Positions 1-63,349 of a stretch of 64,000 nucleotides of DNA are shown one piece after another. The stretch spans positions 1 to 64,000 of the forward strand of contig NZ_AUJB01000002.1 in NCBI RefSeq assembly GCF_000424005.1. Reading direction: 5' to 3'. The stretch is from Pseudobutyrivibrio ruminis CF1b. GTDB lineage: Bacteria > Bacillota > Clostridia > Lachnospirales > Lachnospiraceae. The translations under genes were made by a program, and so were the position numbers. The notes under the pieces were generated by a model. It ran no database searches and was not told where the DNA came from. It saw only the letters and a list, made by a program, of their open reading frames with translations. Numbering within the stretch: position 1 is the stretch's first letter; each line of letters begins with the position of its first letter.

Positions 1-62
1 CAAGCCTTTTAAAGCTATACTTCTGACAAAACTTTTCTTATATATAGTTTTCAAGACAGGCT

Positions 63-278
63 TTATCAATTTACAAGTATGTAACTCTGATACTTTCGTT
101 TTCTATTGATAATTATTTATTGATTGCAATATTAAAATTTCGATTATTATCAATAGATAACGTGTTTATGCGATTAGTAGAAGCTCCATTGATAAATATT
201 ATGATTTAGACATCTCAAGCTTAGTTATTTTATCAATGACAAGCGAAAACACTTGGTTTATAGCTTACAAATTGATAA
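63..278. repeat. Phased alternating octamer array (6 x ATTGATAA)
   Basis: Six exact copies of ATTGATAA or its complement TTATCAAT lie at 63-70 (complement), 105-112, 147-154 (complement), 188-195, 230-237 (complement) and 271-278. Orientation alternates strictly, and start-to-start distances are 42, 42, 41, 42 and 41 bp, about four helical turns. Flanks resemble each other in pairs: copies 1 and 6 share ATTGATAAAGC, and copies 2 and 3 form a near-perfect 20-bp inverted repeat (97-116 with 143-162, 18 of 20 matches). No gene is visible in 1-401. A protein-binding array is the simplest reading; the protein is unknown. Confidence 0.75.
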
Positions 279-289
279 AGCAATCTTAA

Positions 290-346
290 GGGACCTTGGT
301 TAGAGGTTGTGACTTGCCACAGTCCCAGTTTCAAGCAGGTTGAAAC
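290..346. other. Pair of short hairpins beside the octamer array
   Basis: GGGAC at 290-294 can pair with GTCCC at 322-326, enclosing a TGTG/CACA stem (308-311 with 318-321). A second hairpin follows at once, GTTTCAA (328-334) with TTGAAAC (340-346) around a 5-base loop. No reading frame covers it. It could be an RNA structure, a protein site or the edge of a mobile element; the sequence alone does not decide. Confidence 0.35.
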
Positions 347-349
347 AAA

Positions 350-383
350 TAAAAAGAGAAGCCGGTAAATATCGACTTCTCTT
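350..383 (-). terminator. Terminator of the que operon
   Basis: On the minus strand an 8-bp stem AAGAGAAG/CTTCTCTT (354-361 with 376-383) is followed by a run of T residues. It lies just after the queF stop codon. Confidence 0.8.
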
Positions 384-401
384 AATCAGATAAACTCATC
401 T

Positions 402-893
402 TTATCTATTATCCACTTTCTCAGGATACATATCATGATTTGCCATGCGGTTGAAGGCTACCTCTTCCCACTTTGTGCCTGGCTTGCCATAGTTGCAATA
501 TGGGTCGATTGAAATGCCTCCTCTTGGAGTGAATTTTCCCCATACCTCGATGTACTTTGGATCCATAAGCTTGATAAGATCCTTCATTATGATGTTTACG
601 CAATCCTCATGGAAATCACCGTGATTTCTGAAGCTGAAAAGGTAAAGCTTTAGTGACTTGCTCTCTACCATCTTCTCACCTGGAACATAAGAGATGATGA
701 TGTTTGCAAAATCTGGCTGACCAGTGATTGGGCAAAGTGATGTAAACTCTGGACAGTTAAACTTTACAAAGTAATCGTTCTCAGGATGCTTGTTTAAGAA
801 TGTCTGAAGCATCTCTGGTGCGTAGTTATCTGGATATGTGTTGTTCTTGTTTCCTAGAAGGGTTAATGTTCCCTCGTCTTTTCTATCTGCCAT
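402..893 (-). CDS. queF: NADPH-dependent 7-cyano-7-deazaguanine reductase QueF
   Basis: Reduces the nitrile of preQ0 to the aminomethyl group of preQ1 in the queuosine pathway; cytoplasmic. The 163-residue length fits the short, single-domain QueF type. Visible family marks are the catalytic Cys54 in a [11 protein letters not shown] context with Asp61, the NADPH-binding ESKSLK motif (78-83), and His95-Glu96. A GGAGG site lies 9 bases before the ATG. It is last of five co-directional que genes, 39 bases after queC, and is followed by a terminator. Identification is secure. Confidence 0.96.
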
Positions 894-932
894 AATTATT
901 TACCTCCATATTTCAATTCGTATATACGATAA

Positions 933-1619
933 TTAGTTTTCGTATTCAATTGGGTCTGTAACCCCGTTTAACTCAAATGCCGCCTTTCTGTCAATACATG
1001 TGCCACACTTGCCACAGGCCTTCTCGTGCCCCTCGTAGCAGCTCCATGTGAGCTCATAAGGAACACCAATCTCAAGTCCCTTCTTCACTACCTGTGACTT
1101 TGTAAGGCTTATAAATGGAGCAACAATTTCGAGCTGCTTTCCACTACCCTCATAAATAGCTGTGTTCATGGCATTGTTGAATGCCTCCGAGCAATCTGGG
1201 TAAGCATTGCCTGCTGCATCATCGCTGTGTGCTCCATAGTAAATCTTTGAACATCCCTTTGAAAGGGCAATGGCGCTGGCACTTGAAAGGAAAAGACCAT
1301 TTCTAAATGGCACATAAGTGCTCACTAGCTTTCCTTCTGTCTTTGCAAGCTGCTCAGCATATGACTCCTCTGGAATCTCTCCATCTGAGTGCTGTAAAAG
1401 TGTGCAGTCACTGAACTGGAACATTGTAGATAAATCAAGAGTGATGTGCTCTACATTATAGTGCTCGCAAACAGCATCTGCTGCCTTTATCTCCTTATCA
1501 TGACGCTGTCCGTAGAAGATTGAAAGACCTACTACATTCTCGCTTCCGTATTCTTTTACTGCCATTCCAAGGCAAGTGGTGGAATCTACACCACCACTGA
1601 CTAAAACTAATGCTTTCAT
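933..1619 (-). CDS. queC: 7-cyano-7-deazaguanine synthase QueC
   Basis: ATP-dependent conversion of 7-carboxy-7-deazaguanine plus ammonia to preQ0. The 228-residue protein has the PP-loop SGGVDST at residues 8-14 and the C-terminal zinc-binding cysteines Cys194, Cys202, Cys205 and Cys208, as expected for QueC. An AGGAG site precedes the ATG. It sits between folE and queF, 9 bases after folE, and is probably cotranscribed from the promoter upstream of queD. Confidence 0.96.
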   Translation of the reverse strand: MKALVLVSGGVDSTTCLGMAVKEYGSENVVGLSIFYGQRHDKEIKAADAVCEHYNVEHITLDLSTMFQFSDCTLLQHSDGEIPEESYAEQLAKTEGKLVSTYVPFRNGLFLSSASAIALSKGCSKIYYGAHSDDAAGNAYPDCSEAFNNAMNTAIYEGSGKQLEIVAPFISLTKSQVVKKGLEIGVPYELTWSCYEGHEKACGKCGTCIDRKAAFELNGVTDPIEYEN

Positions 1620-1628
1620 AAATATCTC

Positions 1629-2201
1629 CTAAAATAATCTCGCTAATAAATCTCTATCTGTCTTAAACTTTCCACGTAAAGTCTGGGTCTGAGTGCGGGC
1701 TCCTGCATTCTTGATGCCACGAGCTGTCATGCAAGAGTGGCTTGCTTCGATAAATACAGCCACATCCTCAGAACCTGTAACCATCTGAAGAATCTCAGCA
1801 ATATCATTTCCGATACGCTCCTGAAGCTGAAGACGCTTTGCAGCCATATCAGCGATACGTGCAATTTTGCTAAGGCCGATAACCTTTCCATTTGGAATAT
1901 ATGCCACGCTGACCTTCATGTCATACATAAGGGCAAGATGATGCTCGCAGTAGCTGAACACCTCGATATCCTTTACGAATACAAGGTCCTGGCTGTTCTC
2001 ATCATAATAGTCCTCGTCAAAGGTCTTGTTAAACATATCAGCAATCTCCTGATTGCTGTAATTCATTCCCTCGAAAACCTCCTCGTACATGCGGGCAACT
2101 CTGTCTGGAGTCTCAATAAGACCTGCTCTGTCAGGGTCGTCACCAAGAGCGATAATTATATTTCTAACGCTTTCCTTAATTAATTCCTTATTAATTGCCA
2201 T
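1629..2201 (-). CDS. folE: GTP cyclohydrolase I FolE
   Basis: Opens GTP to 7,8-dihydroneopterin triphosphate, the first step for both folate and 7-deazaguanine synthesis. I place the start at 2201 (190 residues) because AGAGGA lies directly upstream and the family homology begins at MAINKEL; the frame stays open to 2279 but overlaps queE. The zinc-site CEHH motif and the SHSCMTARG segment with the second zinc Cys are present. The start lies 13 bases after the queE stop. Its place among que genes suggests a dedicated supply of dihydroneopterin triphosphate for preQ0. Confidence 0.95.
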
Positions 2202-2214
2202 ACTGTCCTCTTTC

Positions 2215-2883
2215 TTACACTCCGCGCTTATCTGGATCCCAGATAAATTTGTGAAGCTGGAGCTGTAATCGAATATCATTACGCTTGTGTTCGATTAAAT
2301 AATTGACCATATCAGCTGGGTCAATACGTCCGAAAACTGGGCTGATTAGAACTGTGCATTTCATTGCCAGACCGTATGTATCAACAAGCTCACATACCTT
2401 ATCAAGCTCACTTACGTCTGAGCATACGAACTTAACAGTGTCCTTAGGCTGAAGGAATGCGAAGTTGGATAAATCCATCTTGTCCTCCATACCTGAGCCT
2501 GCCAGTTTATAATCAAGTGTAAATGCAGGTGCATTTGGAATAGCTGCAAATGGAACTATGTTAACACTTCCATTTGTCTCAATCTCCACCTTAAGGTCTG
2601 GCTCTGCTGCGAAAGCTCTCAAAAGATCCTTAATATCTCTAGCCTTAAGTGGCTCTCCACCTGTAAGTGTGACACGGTTAATACCTGTTGATTTTACATA
2701 ATCTATAATTTCAGTTTCAGTCATCTGCTCAGCTGGAGCCTCATAGCTACATGCCCATCTTGTATCGCAATAGCTACATGCCAAATTACAACCGCGAAGT
2801 CTGATGAATACTGCTAATTCACCTGCGTGCTGCCCCTCGCCATTAATACTGACGAACTTTTCTACTACAAAAAATACTGACAT
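2215..2883 (-). CDS. queE: 7-carboxy-7-deazaguanine synthase QueE
   Basis: Radical-SAM enzyme that contracts 6-carboxytetrahydropterin to 7-carboxy-7-deazaguanine. The 222-residue protein carries the CX3CX2C cluster motif at Cys32, Cys36 and Cys39, preceded by the typical [10 protein letters not shown] stretch, and a TGGEPL motif for SAM binding. The ATG is two bases past the queD stop with its GGAGG site inside the end of queD, so the two are probably translationally coupled. Confidence 0.95.
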
Positions 2884-2885
2884 AA

Positions 2886-3308
2886 TTAATCCTCCGAATA
2901 GCTTGCACAGTTATTTGGAGTCTCATATACTGTCACTTCTGCAACTGTAAAACCGTATTCCTTAAACTTATCAAAAAAGTACTTTGCAAAATTCTCTGCT
3001 GTAGGTCTAAAAGGCACTGCATGCATCTCGAAGTCCTCTGCCGTTAAAGCCGCTACTGTAGCCTCTTTAAGAGAACCTTCTTCATATATAAAGCTGTGGT
3101 CGAAAAAGTCTGTCTCCTTTTTAAGAGCATTCTTCACATCGCCGAAATCTACTACCATTCCGCGCTGCTGACCTTCTTTCTGCAGCTTATCTGTCTTAAT
3201 CTTTAAAATTACTCTCCAGCGATGACCATGTAAATTAGAACACTTTCCTTCATAGCCAGCTAAAAAGTGTGCTCCATCAAATGAAGCTTCTGCAGTTAAA
3301 TAATACAT
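2886..3308 (-). CDS. queD: 6-carboxy-5,6,7,8-tetrahydropterin synthase QueD
   Basis: Converts dihydroneopterin triphosphate to 6-carboxytetrahydropterin. At 140 residues it has the PTPS fold marks: zinc ligands His14, His27 and His29, catalytic Cys23, and the NLHGHRW motif. It is first in the five-gene que operon and lies downstream of a structured leader with its own terminator, so the whole operon is probably attenuated there. Confidence 0.95.
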   Translation of the reverse strand: MYYLTAEASFDGAHFLAGYEGKCSNLHGHRWRVILKIKTDKLQKEGQQRGMVVDFGDVKNALKKETDFFDHSFIYEEGSLKEATVAALTAEDFEMHAVPFRPTAENFAKYFFDKFKEYGFTVAEVTVYETPNNCASYSED

Positions 3309-5372: not shown

Positions 5373-6488
5373 TTACAATAAAATATAGATTAAACACATC
5401 ACAATTAAGAAAATGATATTTGCCAATGTGAAAACACCCATATATTTTTTCTTATCAGCTCCGTCAATATAGCTGTACTGTTTAAAAGAAATCAGGCTGG
5501 CCATGGATGCAATCAGCGTACCAAGTCCACCAAGATTCGTTCCAATAATCAACTTATCAACATTATTTGTGAATCCTGAACAGAGAATTGCTGCTGGGAC
5601 ATTGCTGATGAACTGGCTTAGGAAAATGGATACTCCCACCTCGTTAATCTGTAAAAAGCTACCTATAGCATCGGATAACGCTGGGATTCGCTTAATGTTT
5701 CCTATAAAAATAAATAAGAAAATAAATGTAAACAAAAGTGAGTAATCCGGCTTTCTAAGTACACGTCTATCAAATACCAAAGTAAGCACCACCACTATCG
5801 CTAATCCAATTCTATAATCTAAGGCTCTGGCTACTACAAGGATAGATACTAAAAACGTAAATACGTACATAGCTATCATATTCCTGTCGCGCTTGGTACG
5901 CTCATATATATGCTTTTCCGCCAACGTAACTGGAGCAGCCTTCACAAATACAAATCCACAGATAATCAAAAGAATAAGAGCTACTATGCTGTATGGCAAC
6001 ATGAGCTTTATGAATGCACCAAGACTCATGCCTGTCAGAGAATACAAATATAAATTTTGCGGATTTCCAAGAGGTGTAAGCATGCTGCCAAGGTTTGCAG
6101 CGATTGTCTCAAGAACAATTACAATAATGTATAAATCTCTGCGATTGGAAATAGACAAAGTAACAATTGAAAATGGCACAAAGGTAAGAAGTGCCACATC
6201 ATTTGTGATAAACATTGCAGAGAAAAAGCAAAGACCTATCAACACAAGCACAACTCCTCTGATAGAGCTCATCTTTGCCACAAGCAATTCTCCTATCTGT
6301 CTGAATACCTGAAGACGCTGAAGCCCTGCCATGGTAATCATCAAGGCAAGTAAAATGCTTAATGTTCTAAAATCAATGTAATCTATGTACTTGTTATCTG
6401 GGTGTACAACAAAGCTGGACACCACTGCCAAAACAAAGGCTACCACTAATACTATTTCATTTCTTATAAAGTTTTTTACTGCTTCCAT
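5373..6488 (-). CDS. SLC13/ArsB-type anion permease
   Basis: A 371-residue integral membrane protein with about ten hydrophobic segments, resembling the citrate/arsenite (CitMHS, ArsB, NhaD) ion-transporter superfamily. Conserved features include the FITNDVALLTFVPF segment and a second FISNVPAAIL segment, which mark the two inverted repeats of this fold. The substrate (dicarboxylate, sulfate, arsenite or sodium) cannot be read from the sequence. It follows proC on the same strand, but the hairpin between them suggests separate transcripts. Confidence 0.75.
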   Translation of the reverse strand: MEAVKNFIRNEIVLVVAFVLAVVSSFVVHPDNKYIDYIDFRTLSILLALMITMAGLQRLQVFRQIGELLVAKMSSIRGVVLVLIGLCFFSAMFITNDVALLTFVPFSIVTLSISNRRDLYIIVIVLETIAANLGSMLTPLGNPQNLYLYSLTGMSLGAFIKLMLPYSIVALILLIICGFVFVKAAPVTLAEKHIYERTKRDRNMIAMYVFTFLVSILVVARALDYRIGLAIVVVLTLVFDRRVLRKPDYSLLFTFIFLFIFIGNIKRIPALSDAIGSFLQINEVGVSIFLSQFISNVPAAILCSGFTNNVDKLIIGTNLGGLGTLIASMASLISFKQYSYIDGADKKKYMGVFTLANIIFLIVMCLIYILL

Positions 6489-40324: not shown

Positions 40325-40484
40325 GGGCAACACCTCCTTATTTATCCGGGGGTGATACAGTCTCGTTCAAAATGATACGAGCATGCCATCGGGCGCACCT
40401 TTTTTAAATTTAGAAGCTAAAAGGTATAGTTTCTTTCGAATACCATCCGAAGGACACTATAGCATTTGTGTGGTGCAAAGTAAA

Positions 40485-63228: not shown

Positions 63229-63248
63229 CCATGTAATTTACGTTACGC

Positions 63249-63332
63249 ACGGCATCCCTACGTTGGCATTATCCAAATCAGGTTCTCGGTCGAAGGTCAC
63301 ACCTTCCTCTCAGCCTGTCTACAAGCTCCCGT
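63249..63332 (-). ncRNA. TPP riboswitch aptamer (thi-box)
   Basis: Minus strand carries the conserved thi-box parts: GGCTGAGAGG, ACCTGATTTGGATAATGCCA and ACGTAGGGA, closed by ACGG/CCGT at the ends. Bound thiamine pyrophosphate should switch off the thi operon. Confidence 0.95.
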
Positions 63333-63349
63333 CTATTTAGTTCCCCAAT

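Follow-up and report, generated by a model that had tools for sequence, protein, structure and literature searches.

The six alternating octamers at the left edge of the window belong to a class of arrays which are composed of recurrent units, are phased with the helical repeat of DNA, occur in numerous bacteria of the rumen and gut beside the genes of a predicted nuclease with which their sites co-vary, and are dispersed at many places that lack such a gene. The window is the whole 64,000-bp stretch analysed (G000:C11:1-64000), which starts from the first base of contig C11 in the 16-contig, 3.27-Mb assembly of the source genome, Pseudobutyrivibrio ruminis CF1b (G000). Our preferred reading, to which we would assign a probability of roughly 0.6, is that nuclease and arrays form a chromosomal system like that of REP sequences and RAYT transposases, based on an unrelated nuclease and on short helically phased sites, and that the window array is a non-autonomous member of it. 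The nuclease would bind the alternating inverted sites, several copies lying side by side on one helical face; the arrays bound would be those beside its own gene and those scattered between genes, and through its cutting activity arrays, and at times the gene as well, would now and then be copied to new places.

The window array and the six-copy repeat

The first-pass annotation had reported six copies of ATTGATAA at 63-278, in strict strand alternation and with start spacings of 42, 42, 41, 42 and 41 bp, all of which we confirm (Table 1). Exact octamers number 14 in the window as against 6.5 +/- 2.7 in shuffled sequence, where 14 was reached in one of 100 shuffles, and six of the 14 fall within the array. 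A TGACAA site, of another type than the octamers, extends the series to the left, so the array runs beyond the contig end and is truncated by it. The spacing of about 42 bp masks an arrangement of units and linkers which is evident in most other arrays, where distances of 44–46 bp stand against 28–30, 38–39 or 48–49 bp.

Table 1. Features at the left end of the window, positions counted from its first base
Feature	Position	Strand	Basis or remark
TGACAA site (other site type, TGACAAA/TTTGTCA)	24..29	+	start 39 bp before first TTATCA start
Array unit 1: TTTATCA ... TGATAAT, core ATACTTTCGTT at 90-100 (AACGAAAGTAT on minus strand)	62..113	-	model match C11:59-116
Octamer 1, ATTGATAA	63..70	-	
Octamer 2, ATTGATAA	105..112	+	
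Array unit 2: ATTATCA ... TGATAAA, core AACGTGTTTATGCG at 159-172	146..196	+	model match C11:143-199
Octamer 3, ATTGATAA	147..154	-	
Octamer 4, ATTGATAA	188..195	+	
Array unit 3: TTTATCA ... TGATAAA, core AAGCGAAAACACTTGG at 241-256	229..279	+	model match C11:226-282
Octamer 5, ATTGATAA	230..237	-	
Octamer 6, ATTGATAA	271..278	+	
End module: stem-loop 290-326 and remnant of long hairpin	290..350	.	alignment; fold of longer copy
Terminator-like inverted repeat, putatively facing transcripts that would come from queF	354..383	-	sequence
Repeat's outer end, which reads TAAACTNATCTTTA wherever this end type occurs (six copies), overlaps queF stop codon	384..404	.	alignment
queF-like host gene, neighbour, outside array	402..893	-	

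The flanks of the octamers had also been read as pairing into nested palindromes. Arms 2-3 (97-116/143-162) and 1-6 (60-77/264-281) do pair, being 90% and 89% complementary according to a repeat finder, and arms 4-5 pair in the fold only (301 nt folded as single-stranded DNA, z -4.8); because the site words and core recur in other arrays and the longer arms do not, the long palindromes are not a conserved feature. The neighbouring gene, queF-like by its sequence, is the first in a run (402-3308, minus strand) presumably belonging to the queuosine pathway (queF, queC, folE, queE, queD). Elsewhere in the window a TPP riboswitch (63238-63339, minus strand) and a pan motif (40355-40449, minus strand) scored just above the Rfam gathering scores.

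Stretches of the first 330 bases of the window are repeated at five other contig ends with 95–99% identity, giving six copies in all. Alignment shows that the right part of the array and the outer end TAAACTNATCTTTA, abutting the neighbour gene, are common to the six. Four of the other copies also share the stem-loop, the long hairpin, of which about 105 bp is missing from the window copy, and a nearly identical terminator-like repeat; the C3 copy has a diverged version, with a hairpin of different letters at the position of the terminator-like repeat. A regulator array serving a gene to the left of the window, as had been suggested, finds no support here, the left edge being a contig end inside this repeat.

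A second end type occurs at six further contig ends, five of which carry TTTGTCA/TGACAAA sites. The long hairpin and outer piece were likewise found in five of the six; the C8 end starts inside the hairpin, and the C9 end has neither hairpin nor outer piece. In the C3-end and C10-start copies the outer pieces of the two end types are alike (63 bp, 92%), a likeness which was not detected in the window copy. The two types probably represent opposite ends of a single repeat, the middle of which is unassembled. Flanks were listed for both end types, but end pairs could not be matched and no target-site duplication was established. Flanks of rRNA operons were considered and rejected, since the rRNA-bearing contig ends, as read from the sequence, are different ones (C2 and C9 start, C4 end; C3 and C8 start, C12 end); no 16S gene is assembled in G000, and upstream of the 16S copies in two relatives no alternating series was seen. 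Matches of 32 bp to the window in three other genomes of the genus (L011-L014) were likewise discarded, as they lie inside a coding gene. Beside an array of another species (L137 in G028, about 5640-5840) we noted by eye a long hairpin and a TGTGGCTTGCCACA stem-loop similar in shape to the end module, as in L006 of G000.

One might suppose that the six-copy repeat is an ordinary transposon with its own enzyme in the unassembled middle, the octamers being its end sites. The occurrence of each end type at six contig ends, a middle absent from the assembly, and the likeness of the C3-end and C10-start outer pieces are all in keeping with this. We nevertheless regard it as very improbable, given that gene-less arrays are assembled at C1, C4 and C9, that the same sites flank a nuclease gene, and that G000 has no match to a Y1 transposase, the only transposase family searched. 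What survives of the earlier proposal of a transposon end with phased transposase sites, or of a cooperative array, is a series of phased, putatively cooperative sites tied to a transposon-like enzyme, as indicated by the helical periods and by the arrays flanking a nuclease gene family.

At the queF site the array is found in only one of the 22 genus genomes with a queF match, namely G000 (downstream sequence amounted to 339–1169 bp in four of the 22, and remnants were sought by eye in the first 170 bases). Two others (G027, G012) have kept a piece resembling the outer end of the repeat, and in the remaining 19 neither array nor piece was seen. The window copy is therefore recent in G000 or has been lost elsewhere; among these 22 genomes a clean insertion, with an empty and a filled site, was not established. 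Conservation in close relatives, as envisaged in the first-pass annotation, thus fails for this place and holds for the array type, which recurs elsewhere in relatives.

Unit structure and dispersal

The unit of the window-type arrays measures 51–53 bp and consists of inverted sites, TTTATCA...TGATAAA, around an asymmetric core. Alignment of 20 units gives TTTATCA, 6 or 7 bp, a AACGAAAATATGCGG-like core, a further stretch and TGATAAA. Within units the site starts are a nearly constant 44–46 bp apart, while the linkers, mostly 28–30, 38–39 or 48–49 bp, differ by whole helical turns. Arrays assembled within contigs C8, C1 and C4 have identical sites and different spacer letters. At a place common to G000 and G028 (L052, L133) both sites of one unit align, with different letters in between.

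A relaxed three-site pattern (TGAYAA-N32..37-TTRTCA-N34..39-TGAYAA) has 22 matches in G000, nine forward and 13 reverse, against none for the reversed control. Across the genus it matched in four of 29 genomes, the matches in G022 and G025 looking like chance, and across the family in three of 299 (G000, G020, and G052, whose one match we attribute to chance). A covariance model of the unit (R1), for which up to 150 candidates per genome were scored, matched in 13 of the 29 genus genomes at E <=0.1, several of them with only one to three weak matches, and at least 58 times in G000. A family-wide model (R2), confined to the site type of the window and scored on up to 14 candidates per genome, matched in two of 397 genomes, both from the genus of G000. 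Among the matches listed, more than 20 places in G000 carry matching units, some of them single units. This does not agree with the earlier suggestion of a partition or origin site, for which one locus per replicon would be expected. Long tandem series also exist, for example 16 sites at a 73-bp period.

The sites of a unit change together: 13 cells were changed on both sides where shuffles averaged 3.7, and none of 500 shuffles attained the covariation score, in a set whose units were chosen for having both sites and whose related rows inflate the result.

A predicted nuclease beside the arrays

Comparison of the genes around arrays of different genomes gave one neighbour common to five loci, a protein of about 235 amino acids (about 235–260 in the family). 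In G000 (C6), G001 and G028 its gene has an array on either side, and in G000 (C8) and G009 on one side, so that arrays flank it in four genomes, in three of them on both sides. The five proteins have no Pfam match above cut-off, and for three of them NCBIfam gave none. The PADLOC candidate-defence models PDC-S68 match the C-terminal half of three proteins (E 2.8e-21 to 8.6e-25). In 16 diverse members E150, P179, D180, E195 and K212 are invariant, which is the E..PD..ExK pattern of the PD-(D/E)XK superfamily, K212 presumably acting as the ExK lysine; EH occupies the usual ExK place. Based upon its sequence the partner is predicted to be a PD-(D/E)XK-nuclease-like enzyme with an added N-terminal part.

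A weak profile likeness to T7 endonuclease I (E 0.011) is confined to a stretch of about 40 residues, RS..E..YE..PDF, in a protein of different architecture. In the AlphaFold2 model, which is confident (mean pLDDT 89, pTM 0.69), a helix pair and three-strand sheet are followed by a helical middle part and a C-terminal domain of alpha/beta type. Foldseek returned no match at E 0.001 or better for the whole model and no confident one for the N-terminal part. An AP2/integrase-like DNA-binding domain, suspected there from the three-strand sheet, was rejected, the best matches being prefoldin-like (E 0.08 and worse).

The family is represented in 28 of the 29 genus genomes, with one to 11 matches in each, many of them diverged. 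In G000 such arrays were found to adjoin just two nuclease genes (C8:85652 and C6:38570); the TGATAAA sites of the window match the array beside the former, and the TGACAAA sites of the presumed other end correspond to the array beside the latter. The arrays of G020 and G003 count against a tight bond between array and nuclease: they are of the TTTATC type, yet the best nuclease matches there score 142 and 156 bits, compared to 375–412 bits for the copies beside such arrays.

If the arrays belong to the nuclease, other subfamilies would be expected to have other arrays, and a blind search of their flanks for alternating 7-mers (the detector skips exact palindromes) found them. In the flanks of 30 copies, the best matches fetched, chains of at least five sites occurred in 16, block shuffles giving at most 3. 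The site types include TATCGCA, TGATAAA, TTGACAA, CTGTCAC(A), GGTATAA(C), ATGCATC and AACATGA, among others. A scan of 84,980 species, one genome each, yielded the closest 80 relatives of A5 among those listed, mostly from Lachnospiraceae and in part duplicating earlier loci, and 29 of these 80 loci had chains of at least four sites, as against none of 800 shuffles.

Together these samples, neither of which is random, amount to 110 fetched nuclease loci (30 and 80, some twice), of which 103 have the nuclease ORF by motif and 90, mostly from Lachnospiraceae, are distinct. An exact alternating 7-mer chain of at least four sites is present at 40 of the 90, in 39 cases no more than about 550 bp from the called gene; setting aside the discovery loci, five in number (L173-L176, L201), leaves 35 of 85. 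Such chains were absent from 20 control regions of 6.7 kb, set at arbitrary round coordinates in three genus genomes and not randomly drawn. When one mismatch was permitted and at least five sites within 900 bp were demanded, 57 of the 90 loci had a chain, compared to three of 90 shuffles and one of 40 genomic controls. Against our preferred reading we count the 50 loci without an exact chain and the 33 without a relaxed one. A further 47 fetched loci included ten with chains of at least four sites, all at places already known for arrays (contig ends, pattern or model matches). The association of arrays with the nuclease is strong, and the role we infer for the pair is that proposed above. At L195 (G017:C1, 2394-2988), 24 alternating AACATGA sites with a strict 51-bp period lie beside a nuclease.

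The same-orientation periods of the 40 arrays with exact chains fall into groups of 50–53, 62–63, 71–75, 79–84 and 91–96 bp, with none between the groups, and step by 10.2–10.5 bp. The Rayleigh statistic has its peak at 10.4–10.5 bp when every distinct period is counted and at 10.2 bp when each array contributes its median alone. In 20,000 uniform draws the observed value was never reached, either at 10.4 or at 10.5 bp, a figure which, like those of the permutations below, overstates independence because the arrays are partly related by descent. Helically stepped periods suggest that the arrays are read as DNA, by proteins lined along one face, which argues against RNA.

The site types track the enzyme. 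Similarity of consensus sites rises with nuclease identity over all 780 pairs (rho 0.31, 0/5000 permutations) and also when only the 705 pairs with less than 50% identity are taken (rho 0.19, 12/5000 permutations). Clustering of the proteins gives site blocks of CTGTCACA, TATCGCA, AGTAT and a broad (A)TRCCCA type, with exceptions. Domain-wise Mantel tests, for which 561 of the 780 pairs were usable, singled out no domain as tracking the site.

That the arrays are instead a structured RNA, repeated hairpins with TTTATCA/TGATAAA stems, seems to us scarcely credible. Covariation of the site pairs beyond all 500 shuffles and the good fold of the end module are what one would expect of it. Set against these are the quantisation of the periods by the DNA helical repeat and an A-C mismatch at the inner pair in 15 of 140 collected units (8 of 61 in a curated set). 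Nor is there an Rfam match to the arrays, on which ground a known RNA family was rejected: L003, L006, L007 and L010, searched at E up to 10, gave nothing above chance level, and in a further 11 loci, searched at E up to 0.1, the matches were a tRNA and a skipping-rope RNA, both outside the arrays.

Known systems and the place of the arrays in the genome

The best-known partnership between a resident bacterial enzyme and matching dispersed repeats is, to our knowledge, that of REP/BIME arrays with RAYT transposases (REPtrons). Several enzyme sites also lie near the ends of Tn7-like transposons, and in the sopC-type partition site of the F plasmid inverted sites are arrayed at intervals of about 43 bp. 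Unlike Tn7-like ends the arrays described here stand alone, and unlike sopC they are many and chromosomal, have a nuclease neighbour and show several periods. According to passages of two papers (PMC2817692, PMC3733652) the REP/RAYT repeats are alternating, regularly spaced and extragenic, flank the gene of the resident enzyme and are also scattered without it. The present arrays resemble them in each of these respects, being alternating, regularly spaced and extragenic, and occurring both next to the gene of a dedicated enzyme and at places without that gene. The enzyme differs, being PD-(D/E)XK-like and not an HUH/Y1 transposase, and so do the repeats, which are short words in place of imperfect palindromes of 20–40 bp with a GTAG or CGTC tag. 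The site word of the window is not self-complementary and has neither tag, although some words of other subfamilies are partly self-complementary (ATGCAT, TTTGACAAA). Furthermore, window-type units hold an asymmetric core, and the period is set in helical turns. Since Y1_Tnp has no match in G000 (G001, G028 and G020 have one, three and four) and no tagged 20–40-bp palindrome is present, we do not consider the system a member of the REP/RAYT family.

Whether these loci constitute a previously undescribed class of resident element, independent of REP/RAYT, in which a PD-(D/E)XK nuclease would recognise phased alternating arrays, co-evolve with them and spread non-autonomous arrays, we judge to be about an even bet. 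A literature search, in which few subscription papers and no preprints were covered, returned no nuclease-associated alternating arrays; prior description elsewhere is possible. If the proposal is true, partnerships of repeat and enzyme arose more than once, here on another nuclease fold. Nature offers many pairs of nuclease and site, with periods of 5, 6, 7, 8 and 9 helical turns, and these would make recognition and cooperative assembly directly testable.

BIMEs are thought to serve DNA topology or chromosome structure, and a host system of that kind might be considered here, the arrays being intergenic binding platforms and the nuclease a resident processing or junction-resolving enzyme and not a mover. 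The surroundings of the arrays are compatible with it. Twenty array places with a regular-expression chain (21 rows, two L098 rows being counted once, and with crude gene calls) comprise eight convergent, 12 tandem and no divergent gene pairs, and by eye several arrays are bracketed by terminator-like hairpins. The weak likeness to T7 endonuclease I, a junction resolvase, points the same way. Several nuclease loci have neighbours in common between species, a pattern suggestive of vertical retention more than of active jumping, and searches of 50,697 phage and 72,556 plasmid records gave no match covering 80% of the nuclease. Nevertheless one to 11 nuclease matches per genome, many diverged, and an array type of patchy occurrence (13 of 29 genomes) are unlike a core function, and the six copies of one end at 95–99% identity point to recent spread. 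We consider such a system unlikely, and retain the REP/RAYT-like reading.

The PDC-S68 matches raise another thought, that of a defence or addiction system in which the nuclease would be the effector, anti-phage or toxin-like, and the arrays would serve to titrate it, to control its gene or to mark self. The resemblance to PDC-S68 and other PD-(D/E)XK proteins lies in the C-terminal nuclease-type domain; of the roughly 1200 positions in the PDC-S68 models the match is confined to the C-terminal part, and we know of no array associated with them. The C-terminal part was also matched in three phage and five plasmid records, with two partial matches in IMG/VR, and the domain is found in plasmid genes annotated as AAA family ATPase. 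On the other hand, more than 20 unit places in G000 among the matches listed, as compared to two nuclease genes found beside such arrays, the persistence of arrays without a near nuclease, and recurrent neighbours of housekeeping type such as valS make this improbable, and more so than a topological role. A valS-like gene, which reads as valyl-tRNA synthetase, is present in 14 of the 110 nuclease loci in varied arrangements, some places being counted twice (L222, L225, L226, L236, L237, L243, L250, L251, L256, L266, L267, L282, L185 and L186). In five nuclease loci (L180, L183, L184, L203 and L211) the same large gene, which reads as hypF, is found; the L211 site is TTGAAAA, with a period of 50–51 bp, as against CTGTCACA types.
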